Positions 288-27,483 of a stretch of 39,555 nt of DNA are shown one piece after another (within the stretch, counting starts at the first letter, position 1; every line of letters starts with the position of its first letter). Source of the DNA: an uncultured Bacteroidota bacterium. Its GTDB lineage: Bacteria > Bacteroidota > Bacteroidia > Bacteroidales > P3. The translations under genes were made by a program, and so were the position numbers. The stretch spans positions 1 to 39,555 of the forward strand of contig CACXXO010000020.1 in NCBI GenBank assembly GCA_902771735.1, given 5' to 3'. The notes below the pieces were generated by a model. The model searched no databases, was not told where the DNA came from, and saw only the letters and a list, made by a program, of their open reading frames with translations.

Positions 288-408
288 TTTCTAACTGCTT
301 GATTCTTAATACCAAGTCCGTATCAAGTCCGACTCAAGTCCGACTCAAGTCCGACCGATGTCCGACCGCAGTCGGAGATGATCCGGAGTTGGGTCGGAGA
401 TGGGCCGG
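288..408. repeat. 11-bp phased palindromic array, copy A1 (iorA/GT2 divergent junction)
   Basis: From 310 the sequence divides exactly into 11-base units: TACCAAGTCCG, TATCAAGTCCG, ACTCAAGTCCG twice, ACCGATGTCCG, ACCGCAGTCGG, then reverse-sense units such as AGTTGGGTCGG (387-397) and AGATGGGCCGG (398-408). The last forward and first reverse units meet in CCGAC-CGCA-GTCGG (362-375). Two AT-richer head units, TTTCTAACTGC and TTGATTCTTAA (288-309), precede the core in the same phase and recur in copy A2. The array lies upstream of both divergent promoters, so neither should transcribe it. The rest of the 139-510 gap holds the two promoters and the 429-448 motif; I see no small gene. Confidence 0.9.
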
Positions 409-7620: not shown

Positions 7621-10600
7621 TTAAGGCTTTATGAGGATTATTTTCTGAGTGCTTCGCTGTCCGTCGAGGGTGCCGGTGGCGTAATAGATGCCTGCCTGCA
7701 ACGCCGAGGCATCCCAGTGGTGGGCCCCTTCGCTGGTCAGAGAGAATGAGGCTATGGTGCGCCCCATGACATCGCCGATGCTCACCGCTGTCCCCGGCCG
7801 ACCTTCTATCCACACCCCTTCGTTTGTCGGGTTGGGATAGAGTTTGATCTGGATTGCTCTGTCGGTTTGCGTAATGCGCAGGGGAGAAGGTTCGGCGCAA
7901 TCCCAGGCGTAGACACTGTCCCATAGCGCAAGCGGAATCTGTATGTCGTCAAGCCACACACAGTCGTCGCCTTGGCGGCCCGAGCCGTCTTTGGCATAGC
8001 GCCAGCAGAGGGTGTGCCGTCCCGCAGCTATCACGTGTGTGCGTTGGCGCCAGTCGCCGATGCCCCATGCTTCGGGTGTGAAAGCGCGTCCGTCGACCAA
8101 AAAGGTCATTTTGTCGTGGCGCTCCTCGGTCGAGGTTTTCACCCAGTAGCTCACGCTGTCTCTCATCGGCATTATCACCTCAAGGCATAGCTGCGTCAGT
8201 TGCCCGTCTTCGATGGCTCCCGAGCGGACACTGAAGTGGCCCGAATGGCTCTCCGTGCTGTCGAGAGTCCATGCCACACGGCCGTTGTTCTGCCAGGGGT
8301 GGCTGTCGAATCCCTGCTCGAAGCTGTCGATGCGCTCGCCGGGCTCCAGCCAATAGCGTTGTTCGTTGCGCCAACCGTCCAGATGAAGGGTGGTACCGAT
8401 GCCAAGGGCGCAGATGCTGTCAGGGGTGGAGAAGTCCAATATATTGGCGGTGTCGCTCCATTGCCCGAAGGGCAGTGTCTCGGCGTTGAGTCTCAGCGAA
8501 TCGGCAGTGCCGTCAACAGTGGCTTCCAGTCGGTAGCTGCGCTCCGGCAGCACACGCCGGGCCTCGCGACCGCTGGCATCCACCAGCCGAAGGGTGAGGG
8601 TGGGGTAGGTTACCTCCATGGTGTGGCGCAGCGTAAGGTCGCACAGCGTGCCCGAGCCCCACTCCCAAGCCATGAGGGTGGCTTGCCAATAGGGCTGGCT
8701 GCCGAGGGCTTCGACTGCCACCGGTATAACGACGGACCGGCGGGCACCTGCCGGCAGCGAGTCGATAATGGCTATCTGCTCTCGCAGCAGGGCACCATTC
8801 AGGGTGTCTTCGCCTGTCTGTGTCAATACAATTTTCAGTGTGTCGATGCTGCAGCGCCCGATATTCTCCACTATGCAACTCACGGTTGTGTCGCTGGCTT
8901 CCACCTCGCGCAATGCTACGCCGTACCCGATGTCGGCGTTTACCCTCAAGGTGTCGATGCGGGGCTGTAATCCTTGGCCGGTGGCAGTAAGGATGAGCGG
9001 CAGGGTGTCGAGAGTCTGGCTCAGACGGAGGGTGGCTTGTCCATGGCTGTCGATAGCGGCCACGCCCAGCAGCTGGCCGTCTTGCATGGCTGTCACGCGG
9101 GCTCCGGGAGTACCGCCCACATTTATTTCGCTACTGCCGTTGAATATGCTGTCGGCTATGGTGAGTTCGATATGCTGCGGCACCCCAATCCAGGGCCGCA
9201 GCGTCGGGTCGCCCAGCAGGCAGTAGATTTCCCAATAGAATTTTGCATATCCCGTGCCGAAGGCTGTGACGGCCAGATTGCCGGCCGCCAGCAGTTCACC
9301 CAAGGTGGCGATGGAGGGGTGGCTCCCTGTCAGGGCGTCAAAAGCCCCGCGTGCCGCGCTGTCGTAGGCAACATTCAGGGTTACTGGCCATTTGGGCCCT
9401 ACGGCCCAGTAGAAGTCCTCATACCAAAGTGTAGAGTTGGTGGCGCCTATCACACCCACGCCACCACCCACGGGCAGCCGCAGCAGTTGCTCGCCAAAGC
9501 CTGTGCCGCTGAATGTGTTGCTTTTGCAGCAGTTGTTCACATATACCATGGGCTGTGTTGCTGAGGCCTCCTCGACACGCCCGATGGTCAACGCCGGTGA
9601 GGTCCAGCCTCCTACGGTGCAGTGCGCCGTGTAGTTCAACAGGCTGGCTCCGTAGCCGATGGAGGATACGATGGTGTCAACCTGGGAACCCGACTGCGGG
9701 TTGTGGAACGTGAGTGTATCAATCTCGGGATGAGCCATTTTCGTCTCGCGACCCACGTAGTTGACCTGTGCGTTGGTGGTCAGTGGTGCAGGCGAATACT
9801 GCTCGTTGCCAGCCACCAGCAGCAGGCGCTTCAGCTGGGTGGTGTCGATGCTGTTAAACTGCTCGTAGCGAAGCGTCTTCTCCACTACGATGCGCAGCTC
9901 GGCCGTGTCGTTCACGGGCCAGCGTCCCAGCAGCGCTTCGGGAAGGTAGTCTCCCGTGAAGTCGGCATAGTAGAGGTCGGTGGTGTGCCCCTCGCCGTCA
10001 AGCGAGGTTTCGCCTATAAACGACTGTATCTGTGCCGCGTCGCCAACAAGCAGGATATAGTCGGGCGCTGCATGCAAAGGGTTCTCACTCAGGAAATAGG
10101 GCTGCATCATCTCTTTGATGCTGTCGCGCTTATAGGTTTCAACATAGAGCTCTTCCACATGGTAGCCCTCCTGCCGCTTCCATTGTACAAAATCCTGTAA
10201 ACCAGCTTCAAATTCGGGTCGCGACACAATTAGCAACACCTCTTCGCTTTTGGGGACGGGGGTAGAAACCTTGCTTACAAGTAGCGTTCCCTCAATGCTT
10301 TCCCATATCTTTACTCCACCGCTCACTGGATTGTAGGCCACCGGCCGCACAGTCAGGCGGTAGATCTCTTCGCGGCCCATGCGTCCGAGGTGTTCAACCT
10401 CCATCAGGTCGCCGCTGCGGTAGTATCCGTCTGTCTCATAAATCTTTGTATCGGGCTCGTAGCCAGGCCACGACTGGTCTTTGGCCCACCCTCTGACAAC
10501 CGGAGCCAGGGGGTACTCTCTCAATTCGGGCCAGAGGGTCTCTGTTATCTTCTTTTCTGCAATGTCGCTCACTTTCAATGTGCTGCCCGTCGGCAGTCGC

Positions 10601-10851
10601 AACAGCATGCTTGCCGTAGGCAGGTCGGGGGCATTCTCACGTCCTGTGCCGAAGGACATGCCGTTGCTTGTCATCCGCGAAAAATTCCATCCAACAAGCT
10701 CCAACCCCACTCCTTGCAGTTGGAAATCGACCTTCAACACCCCGTTCCCGGTGTCGTTGATGCGCAAATGGGGCGTTTTTGCCTCCTGGGCAAAACCCAC
10801 CGCGCATGCCAACAGGCACACCAGCAACACGATATGGCGTTTGACGTGCAT
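7621..10851 (-). CDS. Gingipain-like C25 cysteine peptidase with T9SS sorting domain
   Basis: 1076 residues from ATG 10851, chosen because it opens a signal peptide (MHVKRHIVLLVCLLACAVGFAQ). A pro-region runs to about residue 215. The C25 domain follows, with PDYILLVGDAAQI, DLYYADFTGDYLPEALLGRWP, catalytic His410 in NYTAHC, and Cys441 or Cys442 in VNNCC; the His-Cys spacing of about 31 matches gingipains. Beta-rich domains follow, then a C-terminal T9SS sorting domain (LYPNPTNEGVWI to the end). The protein should be exported by Sec and T9SS and anchored at the surface. PorU, the T9SS sortase, is also C25 and of similar size, but no porV neighbour is present, so cargo peptidase is the better guess. 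Confidence 0.88.
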   Translation of the reverse strand: MHVKRHIVLLVCLLACAVGFAQEAKTPHLRINDTGNGVLKVDFQLQGVGLELVGWNFSRMTSNGMSFGTGRENAPDLPTASMLLRLPTGSTLKVSDIAEKKITETLWPELREYPLAPVVRGWAKDQSWPGYEPDTKIYETDGYYRSGDLMEVEHLGRMGREEIYRLTVRPVAYNPVSGGVKIWESIEGTLLVSKVSTPVPKSEEVLLIVSRPEFEAGLQDFVQWKRQEGYHVEELYVETYKRDSIKEMMQPYFLSENPLHAAPDYILLVGDAAQIQSFIGETSLDGEGHTTDLYYADFTGDYLPEALLGRWPVNDTAELRIVVEKTLRYEQFNSIDTTQLKRLLLVAGNEQYSPAPLTTNAQVNYVGRETKMAHPEIDTLTFHNPQSGSQVDTIVSSIGYGASLLNYTAHCTVGGWTSPALTIGRVEEASATQPMVYVNNCCKSNTFSGTGFGEQLLRLPVGGGVGVIGATNSTLWYEDFYWAVGPKWPVTLNVAYDSAARGAFDALTGSHPSIATLGELLAAGNLAVTAFGTGYAKFYWEIYCLLGDPTLRPWIGVPQHIELTIADSIFNGSSEINVGGTPGARVTAMQDGQLLGVAAIDSHGQATLRLSQTLDTLPLILTATGQGLQPRIDTLRVNADIGYGVALREVEASDTTVSCIVENIGRCSIDTLKIVLTQTGEDTLNGALLREQIAIIDSLPAGARRSVVIPVAVEALGSQPYWQATLMAWEWGSGTLCDLTLRHTMEVTYPTLTLRLVDASGREARRVLPERSYRLEATVDGTADSLRLNAETLPFGQWSDTANILDFSTPDSICALGIGTTLHLDGWRNEQRYWLEPGERIDSFEQGFDSHPWQNNGRVAWTLDSTESHSGHFSVRSGAIEDGQLTQLCLEVIMPMRDSVSYWVKTSTEERHDKMTFLVDGRAFTPEAWGIGDWRQRTHVIAAGRHTLCWRYAKDGSGRQGDDCVWLDDIQIPLALWDSVYAWDCAEPSPLRITQTDRAIQIKLYPNPTNEGVWIEGRPGTAVSIGDVMGRTIASFSLTSEGAHHWDASALQAGIYYATGTLDGQRSTQKIILIKP

Positions 10852-10909: not shown

Positions 10910-10936
10910 AAAAGTGTCCGCTTGCCACCCCCTTGG

Positions 10937-11024
10937 TACCATCTACCTACCAACCCCCTACCAACTCCCTACCAACTCCTACCATCGTAGGTGTTGATAC
11001 CTGATTGACAGGTAGTTGAAATGT
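10937..11024. repeat. 11-bp phased palindromic array, copy B1 (C25/hisS divergent junction)
   Basis: Four forward units TACCATCTACC, TACCAACCCCC, TACCAACTCCC, TACCAACTCCT (10937-10980) meet the dyad CCTAC-CATC-GTAGG (10978-10991). Reverse-sense units GGTGTTGATAC, CTGATTGACAG and GTAGTTGAAAT follow in phase, and degenerate copies may continue to about 11046. The reverse complement of 10992-11024 aligns with the head of copies A1 and A2. TCCGCTTGCC (10917-10926) on its left also precedes copy B2. The remainder of the 10852-11161 gap holds two promoters and the shared 11061-11080 motif. Confidence 0.88.
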
Positions 11025-11060
11025 TTGTTAAATTTAGTTAAATGTACCCGTTTTTTACCC

Positions 11061-12514: not shown

Positions 12515-13530
12515 AGCGCCTGTTGTTTATAGCATTCCTACTCCTGCCCCTGAGCCTTGCGGCACAGGTGGTGGCGGATACCGTCGCCGAGGTGGGCGTT
12601 GGCGAGTGGCTGAACAACGAGGCGTCGGCGCCCCGTGTCATGATGCCGGCACCGCCTCAGCCCGACACCGTCTACGTCCTCCGCACCGACACCCTCCGCC
12701 TCTACCGCACCGACACCCTCCATGTCTACCACACCGATACCGTCATCCGTCGCGAGGCCGACACGGCGGCTCTCCGTGCACTGCAGGACAAAGAAGTGTT
12801 CTACCGCGAAATCCTCTCTGCCAACGGCGTAGACAAGGAGAAACTCGAGGCCGAGCGCAACTACTACATCCACATGGTCGACTCGCTGCGGGCTTTGGTG
12901 CGCATCGCCGAATTGGAAAATGTGCGCAAGGAAGAGGCCAACAAATACTTGGAAGAGAGGGCTAAGGCCGCCGAAGAGCGTGTGGCCCTGGCTACCAACC
13001 GCAAGAAGAAAGTGCGCCCCATCCAGGGCGTGGCCATGCGTTTCTATCGCACCCCCGACTGGGAAATACGCCTCAAGGCCGGCGCCACCACGGGCACCTA
13101 CGACCGCTACATCTCCAACCGTAATGCCGGCGATGTGGAGTTTGACTATGTCACCGGCGCCTCGGTGATGCTGTGGGATTTGACCAAGTTTTTCAATCGT
13201 TCGCACACGTTGGGCAACGACAGCACGGGACGGCAGATTCGTCGCTTCGACCAGGATTTCGCCTACGACATCGGCTTCTATGTCGGTTTCGGAGGAAGCA
13301 ACCTGTTCAAGAATTTCTATGCCGGTTTCAGCTTCCGCTTCGTCGACTTCTTTTACCTCACTTTTGGATGTAATATCGCCGAATACCAGGTGCTGAAAGA
13401 TGGTTATGGCAACGGCGACATCATCGGCAACAGCCTTAGCATCGACGATGTCACGGCCAAAGCCTGGCTGTTGAAGCCTTTCCTTTCCTTAAGCATCGAT
13501 TTGGATTTCCTCAGCTATATCAAGAAATAA
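12511..13530 (+). CDS. Outer-membrane beta-barrel protein with octapeptide-repeat stalk
   Basis: 339 residues, unrecognised family. A signal peptide ([19 protein letters not shown]) is followed by a Pro-rich spacer. Then four consecutive eight-residue repeats run from residue 52: [33 protein letters not shown] charged coiled coil covers about residues 84-165 ([29 protein letters not shown]). The C-terminal half is rich in alternating aromatic strands ([38 protein letters not shown]) and ends in LSYIKK, as expected for a small barrel. It overlaps hisS by four bases. The coiled coil plus barrel suggests a trimeric or stalked envelope protein; this is inference. Confidence 0.75.
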
Positions 13531-17905: not shown

Positions 17906-18008
17906 AGTGTTTGTTTTTTCAATATGTTAAATAACGTGAAAAAATGTCATATAGTATGTCCTCCGGTAAAAATAAAATCCGCTTGCCGCAGGGTAAGGTA
18001 GAACCCCC

Positions 18009-18097
18009 TATGAAGACCCTACCAACACCCTACCAACTCCTACCACGGTAGGAGTTGGTAGGGTGTTGGTAGGGTGATAATAGGTTGATAGTGCCTA
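18009..18097. repeat. 11-bp phased palindromic array, copy B2 (flavodiiron/cutC divergent junction)
   Basis: Units TATGAAGACCC, TACCAACACCC and TACCAACTCC lead to the dyad CCTAC-CACG-GTAGG (18039-18052). Reverse-sense units then follow in the same phase to about 18097. Positions 18016-18044 and 18047-18075 are perfect 29-base inverted repeats separated by two bases. TCCGCTTGCC (17978-17987) to the left is identical to the sequence left of copy B1, and the distance to the first unit is 21 bases here against 10 there, a difference of exactly one unit. Confidence 0.93.
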
Positions 18098-18110
18098 CTT
18101 TATACTTATT

Positions 18111-27255: not shown

Positions 27256-27387
27256 AGTCGGACTTGATTCTAACTGCTTGATAATTAGTACCATGTCCGT
27301 ATCAAGTCCGACTCAACTCCGTATCAAGTCCGACCCAACTCCGACTCCCGTCGGAGATGACTCGGAGATGGTGCGGAGATGGTACGT
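27256..27387. repeat. 11-bp phased palindromic array, copy A2 (barrel/DUF389 divergent junction)
   Basis: The core 27289-27387 divides exactly into nine 11-base units: TACCATGTCCG, TATCAAGTCCG, ACTCAACTCCG, TATCAAGTCCG, ACCCAACTCCG, ACTCCCGTCGG, AGATGACTCGG, AGATGGTGCGG, AGATGGTACGT. The dyad is CCGAC-TCCC-GTCGG (27341-27354). Head units ATTCTAACTGC and TTGATAATTAG (27267-27288) match those of copy A1, and a further reverse unit AGTCGGACTTG (27256-27266) sits outside them. The rest of the 27119-27483 gap holds the barrel promoter and no visible gene. A promoter for DUF389 is not clear. Confidence 0.9.
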
Positions 27388-27483
27388 CCGTGAACCGTTC
27401 CCGGTGGCAGGTGGAGTGGGCCTGGTGCACAATAAAACCGGGCTCGCTGCGTTATATGTCGAAATGATAAACCGTTTTTCGAC

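Follow-up and report, generated by a model that had tools for sequence, protein, structure and literature searches.

Nine short DNA units that differ in sequence follow one another at exactly 11 bp near the start of the stretch studied here, and the question is what keeps such a spacing when the letters themselves vary. The stretch (hereafter, the window) is the 39,555-nt contig C20 of G000, a 2.29-Mb draft genome of a Bacteroidales bacterium in 37 contigs that is 96% complete. The initial annotation described arrays of this kind at four loci and took their spacing as a hint of a protein that binds cooperatively or bends DNA. That picture was partial, as it included neither the strand flip within the arrays nor their number (about 185 copies per genome by extrapolation), their spacing of ~11 kb along the chromosome, or the replacement of their units between species.

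Architecture of the Elements in the Window

The arrays at positions 310–408 and 27289–27387 each consist of nine 11-mers in an unbroken register, as originally described. They are not plain direct repeats: five units run in one direction, the strand flips at a dyad, and three inverted units follow (e.g., CGGAGATGGGT), and the single loose consensus first offered for all units does not fit those of the inverted right arms. The two TACC arrays, at positions 10937–11024 and 18009–18097, had also been taken as free of phase slips; in fact, each slips once, at an innermost unit, TACCAACTCC, of 10 bp (positions 10970–10979 and 18031–18040). Period 11 was nevertheless reported by TRF at all four loci. 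The arrays are real, and profile matches (nhmmer) reach 284–431, 10929–11041, 17994–18102, and 27261–27411, that is, the elements are longer than the extents originally given.

Two types of elements can be distinguished. The type A element (TCCG units) at 284–431 lies on the plus strand (144.9 bits) and begins with a leader, TTTCTAACTGCTTGATTCTTAA (288–309, plus strand), which the sequence and the profile search show to be common to type A elements; by eye, elements of related species that are built of other units have a similar leader. The 284–431 element continues with a left arm of five inward 11-bp units, TACCAAGTCCG ... ACCGATGTCCG (310–364, plus strand), a dyad, and a right arm of three inverted 11-bp units in which the register is kept (376–408, minus strand; TRF period 11 at 373–408); the DNA fold of 310–408 has z = −3.5. 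The second type A element (27261–27411, plus strand, 143.1 bits) has the leader TTCTAACTGCTTGATAATTAG (27268–27288, plus strand), a left arm of five 11-bp units (27289–27343, plus strand), and a right arm of three inverted 11-bp units (27355–27387, minus strand), both arms being seen in the sequence and by TRF, with z = −3.9 for the fold of 27289–27387.

The type B elements (TACC units) are both on the minus strand. One (10929–11041, 83.0 bits) lies upstream of hisS, in a slot common to related species, and its left arm is made of three 11-bp units and one 10-bp unit (10937–10979, plus strand; sequence and TRF). The other (17994–18102, 107.6 bits) lies upstream of cutC and contains a perfect 28-bp palindrome at 18016–18075, with the left arm at 18016–18043 (plus strand) and the right arm at 18048–18075 (minus strand); the fold of 18009–18097 reaches −35 kcal/mol (z = −10.6).

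Pfam assigned the seven window proteins that flank the arrays to GT2, C25 peptidase, hisS, ODP, CutC, and DUF389, one protein having no match, and no par operon was found among them. The C25 (gingipain-type) peptidase gene at 7621–10851 encodes a Por secretion tail and is divergent from hisS across the array. Repeats of 24 bp occur at 12662–12741, within a reading frame after hisS, and a 24-bp period is present on that side of hisS in several related genomes as well. Among the named relatives of one window gene, those ranked highest are for the most part Bacteroidales of the rumen and gut, including Candidatus Colimorpha onthohippi.

A Dispersed Intergenic Family

All four window arrays are members of one dispersed family. 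A BLAST search with the first array against its own genome gave 42 matches, some of them on both strands of one place, and the profile search found 70 elements in 839,555 bp (~37% of the genome), of which the 68 above 20 bits were used; extrapolation from these gives the copy number stated above. The elements are ~100–150 bp long and built of 11-bp units, with the leader TAACTNNCTGAT in type A. Alignment of twenty type A copies, taken with the two in the window, gives a common layout: the leader TNTAACTGNCTGATNCTTAG, some five inward units (e.g., AACTCCGTATC), the dyad, and some three inverted units. Type B is a palindrome of TACCAACNCCC units; first-look candidates for this type numbered 136 and 135, and 40 of them were scored each time. 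By eye, the outer blocks of some type B copies (AACTRCCTGAY...) resemble the type A leader, and in some copies the left and right outer blocks resemble each other. When phased units are counted strictly, 30 of 58 arrays in G000 are two-armed.

The location of the family is intergenic. Of 83 detections in the 839,555 bp, 73 lie between two called genes and two at a contig or sample edge; the remaining eight are palindrome-only detections outside intergenic gaps and were taken as chance. It should be noted that the genomes are drafts and that genes came from a simple in-house caller.

The period is specific. In 439,555 bp of G000, self-similar intergenic windows numbered 29 at lag 11 and none at lags 10, 12, or 13; coding DNA had none at lag 11, and lag 23 had none in either compartment. 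Chains of at least three units on either strand numbered 36 at a spacing of 11, two at 9, and none at 7, 8, 10, or 12–16. According to the initial annotation, the arrays would be refuted if phasing at 11 were no more common than at 10 or 12; with 29 windows and 36 chains at 11 and none at 10 or 12, this comparison does not refute them. In a second genome, G051, the intergenic windows fall at lags 11 (37 windows) and 22 (35 windows), every other lag from 6 to 24 giving 0–1.

Regular Spacing along the Chromosome

The 68 profile-defined elements of G000 form 62 within-contig gaps with a mean of 11.8 kb, a median of 11.5 kb, and a coefficient of variation (CV) of 0.41, compared with 0.92 ± 0.11 (minimum 0.60 in 5000 draws) when intergenic gaps are chosen at random; two more intergenic nulls and one uniform null agree. 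On contig C6 alone, the CV is 0.24 (10 gaps). Close pairs are certainly excluded: two gaps are under 5 kb, against about 20 expected. Long gaps are likely scarce too, because the gap lengths are better described by a gamma distribution of shape 6.2 (log-likelihood −609.3) than by an exponential offset by the shortest gap (−623.6), a difference of 14 log units. With type B fixed and type A randomized, none of 5000 draws was as regular as the observed ladder.

Spacing was compared between genomes using lag detection and core chains against an intergenic null. Among the six genomes tested, regularity was strong in three, namely G000 (68 gaps, CV 0.445, 0/4000), G111 (22 gaps, CV 0.503, 0/4000), and G051, weak in G028 (15 gaps, CV 0.557, P = 0.03), and not shown in G002 (9 gaps, CV 0.677, P = 0.19) or G036 (6 gaps, CV 0.846, P = 0.52); G084, G092, G085, G124, and G062 had too little sequence sampled to enter the test. 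The regular ladders belong to species with different units and have mean spacings of 10.7–14.4 kb. Control arrays of 7 or 7–8 bp in G002, G036, G028, and G000 were not regular (CV 0.96–1.40, P 0.59–0.99).

In G051, 391 kb contain 38 arrays, 27 with a GTTCT core and 11 with an AACNCC core; the lag threshold there was 24 (23 elsewhere), and it was set, together with the GTTCT chains, after the unit had been seen. All arrays taken together give 36 gaps with a mean of 10.65 kb and a CV of 0.393, against 0.893 ± 0.127 for the null (0/4000), and no gap is under 4 kb where 11.3 were expected. The GTTCT arrays alone are less regular (CV 0.652, P = 0.013), and with either family fixed and the other randomized, none of 5000 draws was as regular, both ways round. 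The GTTCT and AACNCC arrays thus interleave into one ladder.

Restricting the count to AACNCC-core arrays tightens the ladder (CV 0.407 in G000, 0.439 in G111, and 0.466 in G028). Five non-core 11-bp arrays in G000 keep away from other arrays (P = 0.006); in G028, non-core arrays do not tighten the ladder (CV 0.557 with all arrays, 0.466 with core arrays), and the distance of these six from other arrays gave P = 0.14. It is therefore not clear that every 11-bp array is a rung; the assumption that each one counts gained some support in G000 and did not hold in G028. G124 matches neither core pattern; two 20-kb stretches of it contain three lag-11 arrays (units such as ACGGTGCATGT), of which two lie 10.7 kb apart, and a 20-kb stretch of G062 contains none.

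Turnover of Units and Positions between Species

In a search preset to one core, AA(C/G)NCC at 11-bp spacing, 24 of the 120 genomes of the genus had more than 10 matches; the 5-bp spacers were species-specific, and the reversed control matched rarely. As units at the hisS slot differ between species, a second core, GTTCT at 11-bp spacing, was searched for; 48 of the 120 genomes match it (405 matches in G051, 359 in G095, and none in G000), and the reversed control gave none in 108 of 120. The start of hisS was located in 29 of 30 genomes, G108 being the exception. Among the genomes listed, AACNCC-type arrays occupy this slot in G000, G028, G084, G033, and G007, with a variant in G092; other units are TGTTCTTTTAC in G011, TGTTCTMCGGT in G100, and TTCTTATGTAT in G101, and several species have no array there. 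The two cores are not strict alternatives, since G050, G011, and G066 carry both. Nor are they entirely without relation: an AA/TT exchange separates C-AA-CTCCG from G-TT-CTCCG, and in one G051 element, AAGTCCGTATC and AACACCGTCTG lie beyond the GTTCT units in the same register.

Comparison of adjacent gene pairs shows the same turnover for positions. Between G000 and the closer relatives G028, G084, and G092 (84–86% mean protein identity), an array was present in both genomes at five pairs, in the relative only at two, and in G000 only at two; for the distant G002, G111, and G036, the corresponding numbers are one, one, and seven. In this comparison of the six relatives, 64 pairs were array-free in both genomes, and one was masked. 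Between G051 and G000, 18 pairs were without arrays, and one had an array in G000 only. By eye, the array seems better conserved than its flanks at cutC (G092) and hisS (G028 and G084). From one species to the next, the units are replaced in sequence and the arrays mostly change place, and the 11-bp pitch stays; that spacing is kept while sequence drifts, as the initial annotation suggested, is supported both within and between species.

In an order-wide search, the first core was rare outside the genus and little above the reversed control, with G017 (15 matches) and G349 (21 matches) as the clearest exceptions; three genomes of the nearest other genus had none. G017 and G349, from other families of the order, carry AACTCC 11-bp arrays. 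On contig C116 of G017, these lie on opposite strands ~60 bp apart, on the basis of which the layout may exist outside the genus.

Proposed Explanation

The regular placing at ~11 kb and the species-specific units suggest a protein that marks out the chromosome. Our preferred reading, which we put forward tentatively as a good possibility short of a probability, is that the elements are binding arrays for a putative oligomerizing DNA-binding protein by which the chromosome is marked at intervals of ~11 kb. Such a sequence-specific protein would assemble side by side, with a protomer (or dimer) on each unit, and in many elements it would do so from the two sides of a dyad; the 11-bp pitch would be set by the protein, and the spacing of the arrays would be under selection. 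The arrays would be the rungs of a chromosome-wide ladder, one per ~11 kb, at which the bound protein could mark or anchor the chromosome, e.g., as a boundary of a supercoiling or looping domain or as a compaction point.

An oligomerizing architectural protein would be expected to leave a pitch kept under sequence change, a short core with a free spacer, frequent dyads, and a chromosome-wide interval common to two families of one genome. A pitch kept under sequence drift plausibly fits recognition along one helix face by such a protein; to this extent, the cooperative protein of the initial annotation is retained, and the bending protein is not supported, GC and AT-step phasing being no stronger than in shuffled units. 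Slightly more doubtful is the extended form of this reading, a chromosome ruler in which a dedicated protein coats arrays spaced ~11 kb apart and the ladder is built anew in each species, from different units and at different positions, as the specificity of the protein drifts, the pitch and interval being nearly fixed. The supercoil domain of E. coli is ~10 kb, and the ladder, if functional, would be a directly visible, sequence-encoded domain ruler of the kind long sought behind domains of this size.

Alternative Explanations

The main rival of the putative-protein reading, unlikely in our estimate and to be taken seriously, is that the arrays are the ends or cargo of a MITE-like, non-autonomous transposon with target immunity, for which even spacing would arise without a cellular function. 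Units within a species are near copies of one another with common leaders, which also fits spread as a mobile element. Gain and loss at adjacent gene pairs are discrete in both close and distant relatives, close pairs are rare in G000 and G051, and replication-coupled insertion could account for the way in which the strand of the 25 G111 arrays follows GC skew (P = 0.0009). The two types of G000 elements also cluster regionally: in sampled stretches, 11/11 elements of C6 are of type A, and 11/12 of C2 and 14/15 of C7 are of type B, and of the 62 pairs of neighboring elements in G000, 48 are alike in type where 31.8 would be expected (P = 5 × 10−5). If an exclusion of 6 kb is assumed and the five shorter gaps are dropped, the remaining gaps do not clearly differ from an exponential (Kolmogorov–Smirnov P = 0.06; 0.02 at 5 kb and 0.007 at 4 kb).

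Against this stand the 14 log units by which the gamma distribution beats the shifted exponential and the recurrence of similarly spaced ladders in species with different units. Moreover, the GTTCT and AACNCC families of G051 keep their distance from each other, so target immunity would have to act across families. No target duplication could be defined in the comparison with the six relatives, none of which is close enough to show an empty site with a duplication. No transposase is linked to the arrays in a search for one family, Y1_Tnp (RAYT, PF01797), which gave no match in G000, G111, G028, G036, and G085 and was present in the other five of the 10 genomes searched (G002, G011, G001, G004, and G034), the first three of which bear arrays; mobilization by RAYT in the manner of REP elements was rejected for the genomes in which the family was not found. 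A mobile element with immunity thus explains spread and exclusion, the likely scarcity of long gaps less easily, and the cross-family spacing only with an extra assumption. If it were nevertheless true, the cross-family spacing rule would itself be new.

It is improbable that the elements are a topological device in which cruciform palindromes or strong gyrase sites set supercoil domains of ~10 kb. The spacing is indeed close to that of the E. coli domain. In G051, 26 of 26 GTTCT arrays found by chains are two-armed, and the consensus of these 26 elements is a near-perfect palindrome with ~48-bp arms. The length and symmetry of the elements also resemble the strong gyrase site, which, according to PMC6379681, is a symmetric motif of 130 bp whose flanks show a 10.75-bp periodicity. 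The latter is a periodicity of GC content, which was not found here: compared with shuffled units, 21 unit types gave P = 0.71 for GC phasing and P = 0.97 for AT-step phasing, and bending or gyrase wrapping by such phasing was rejected. None of 25 G111 arrays is two-armed, yet G111 is regular. Pairing between the arms of G000 type B elements (35 of 37, two odd-dyad ones being dropped) equals the column expectation at most positions; it clearly exceeds it at one position (0.89 vs. 0.68) and slightly at several more. On this ground, selection for RNA or hairpin structure was rejected.

Still more improbable is a polar signal for a moving machine (similar to FtsK sites, Chi, or fork barriers), in which one-armed arrays would act in one direction and palindromic arrays in both. 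In G111, all 25 arrays are one-armed, their strand follows GC skew (mean −0.016 for 9 plus-strand and 0.080 for 16 minus-strand arrays), and neighbors agree in strand in 42 of 53 pairs of the pattern arrays listed. One-armed arrays in G000 (28, P = 0.78) and G051 (6, P = 0.40) show no such bias, and orientation by replication as a general rule was rejected, being confined to G111. We also know of no regular spacing as a property of Chi or KOPS.

An origin of the arrays as ordinary minisatellites, by replication slippage, is strongly disfavored and very improbable: other tandem arrays, of period 7–10, are plentiful in the genus, but those of 7–8 bp are irregular where those of 11 bp are regular, the 11-bp arrays have inverted arms, and their cores are common to many species; a simple tandem microsatellite was likewise set aside because of the inverted arms, the exclusivity of the period, and the spacing. 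Equally remote are transcription terminators or operators of neighboring genes. The predicted folds of the four elements in the window are stronger than those of shuffled DNA (z from −3.0 to −10.6), and the profile-defined elements lie close to gene ends (median 66 bp, against 169 bp to gene starts), but every orientation of flanking genes occurs (26 divergent, 35 tandem, and 12 convergent, compared with 52, 99, and 21 among G000 intergenic gaps of at least 150 bp). Given these orientations and distances, neither a promoter element nor a terminator fits as a general role: the 26 of 73 between divergent genes have no read-through to stop, the 12 of 73 between convergent genes need no promoter, and Rfam gave no structured-RNA match in the window at the gathering score.

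Comparison with Known Systems

We know of no repeat family in which a fixed helical pitch occurs together with replaceable sequence and near-periodic positions on the chromosome. The matS, KOPS, and parS sites are, like the present elements, distributed along chromosomes for organizing proteins, but they are single short motifs rather than phased arrays. The parC site of plasmid R1 (ParR/ParM) has tandem direct repeats of 11 bp in two blocks of five, which a small repressor binds side by side. The title of a paper cited in PMC5016525 speaks of "ten direct repeats". In contrast to the present elements, often palindromic and extrapolated to ~185 sites per chromosome, parC is one site per plasmid beside its own operon.

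REP/BIME elements with RAYT are also dispersed intergenic palindromes, present in more than 100 copies per genome (PMC2817692) and consisting of a tag plus a palindrome (PMC3733652). They are described as 20–40 bp long, with a GTAG or CGTC tag, and neither an 11-bp internal period nor regular chromosomal spacing is mentioned in the descriptions consulted; the window elements are ~100–150 bp long with 11-bp units, and no member of the RAYT family was found in G000. The BrickBuilt MITE of Porphyromonas gingivalis, to which the initial annotation thought a relation possible, is similar in being an intergenic element of the Bacteroidales with an internal tandem array. The kinship appears weak: according to PMC4596501, BrickBuilt has 23-nt repeats, IS-like terminal inverted repeats, and 19 copies, compared with period 11 and no signal at lag 23 here. 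DNA uptake sequences (DUS/USS) share the many copies, and an even spacing has been claimed for them and interpreted as pointing to a function in replication, repair, or compaction (PMC1939737). We found no description of a ladder such as the present one in the open PubMed Central literature.

Further Arrays and Palindromes in the Genus

The GTTCT elements of G051 (L269–L288) are near-perfect palindromes, 27 of them in 391 kb. Long near-perfect palindromes are usually unstable in bacteria, and for this reason, SbcCD may be absent from G051 or the arrays may be protected there.

Arrays with other periods were also seen. Stretches of G002 (C1) and G036 (C34) contain abundant intergenic arrays of period 7 (TTTTCAA, TGATGAG, and CATTAAC) and period 8 (L123–L141), as well as some of periods 9 and 10 (CCTAGGNNNN; GGAGTGAAAN, the latter also in G028). 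Upstream of GT2 genes, locus L144 has a palindromic array with an 8-bp unit, GCGTTACA, two-armed like the 11-bp elements, and L149 has CCTAGG every 10 bp, that is, a 10-bp phased array. Among 17 named relatives (of 80 loci) examined upstream of the GT2 gene of the window, one (L152) has a clear 11-bp palindromic array.
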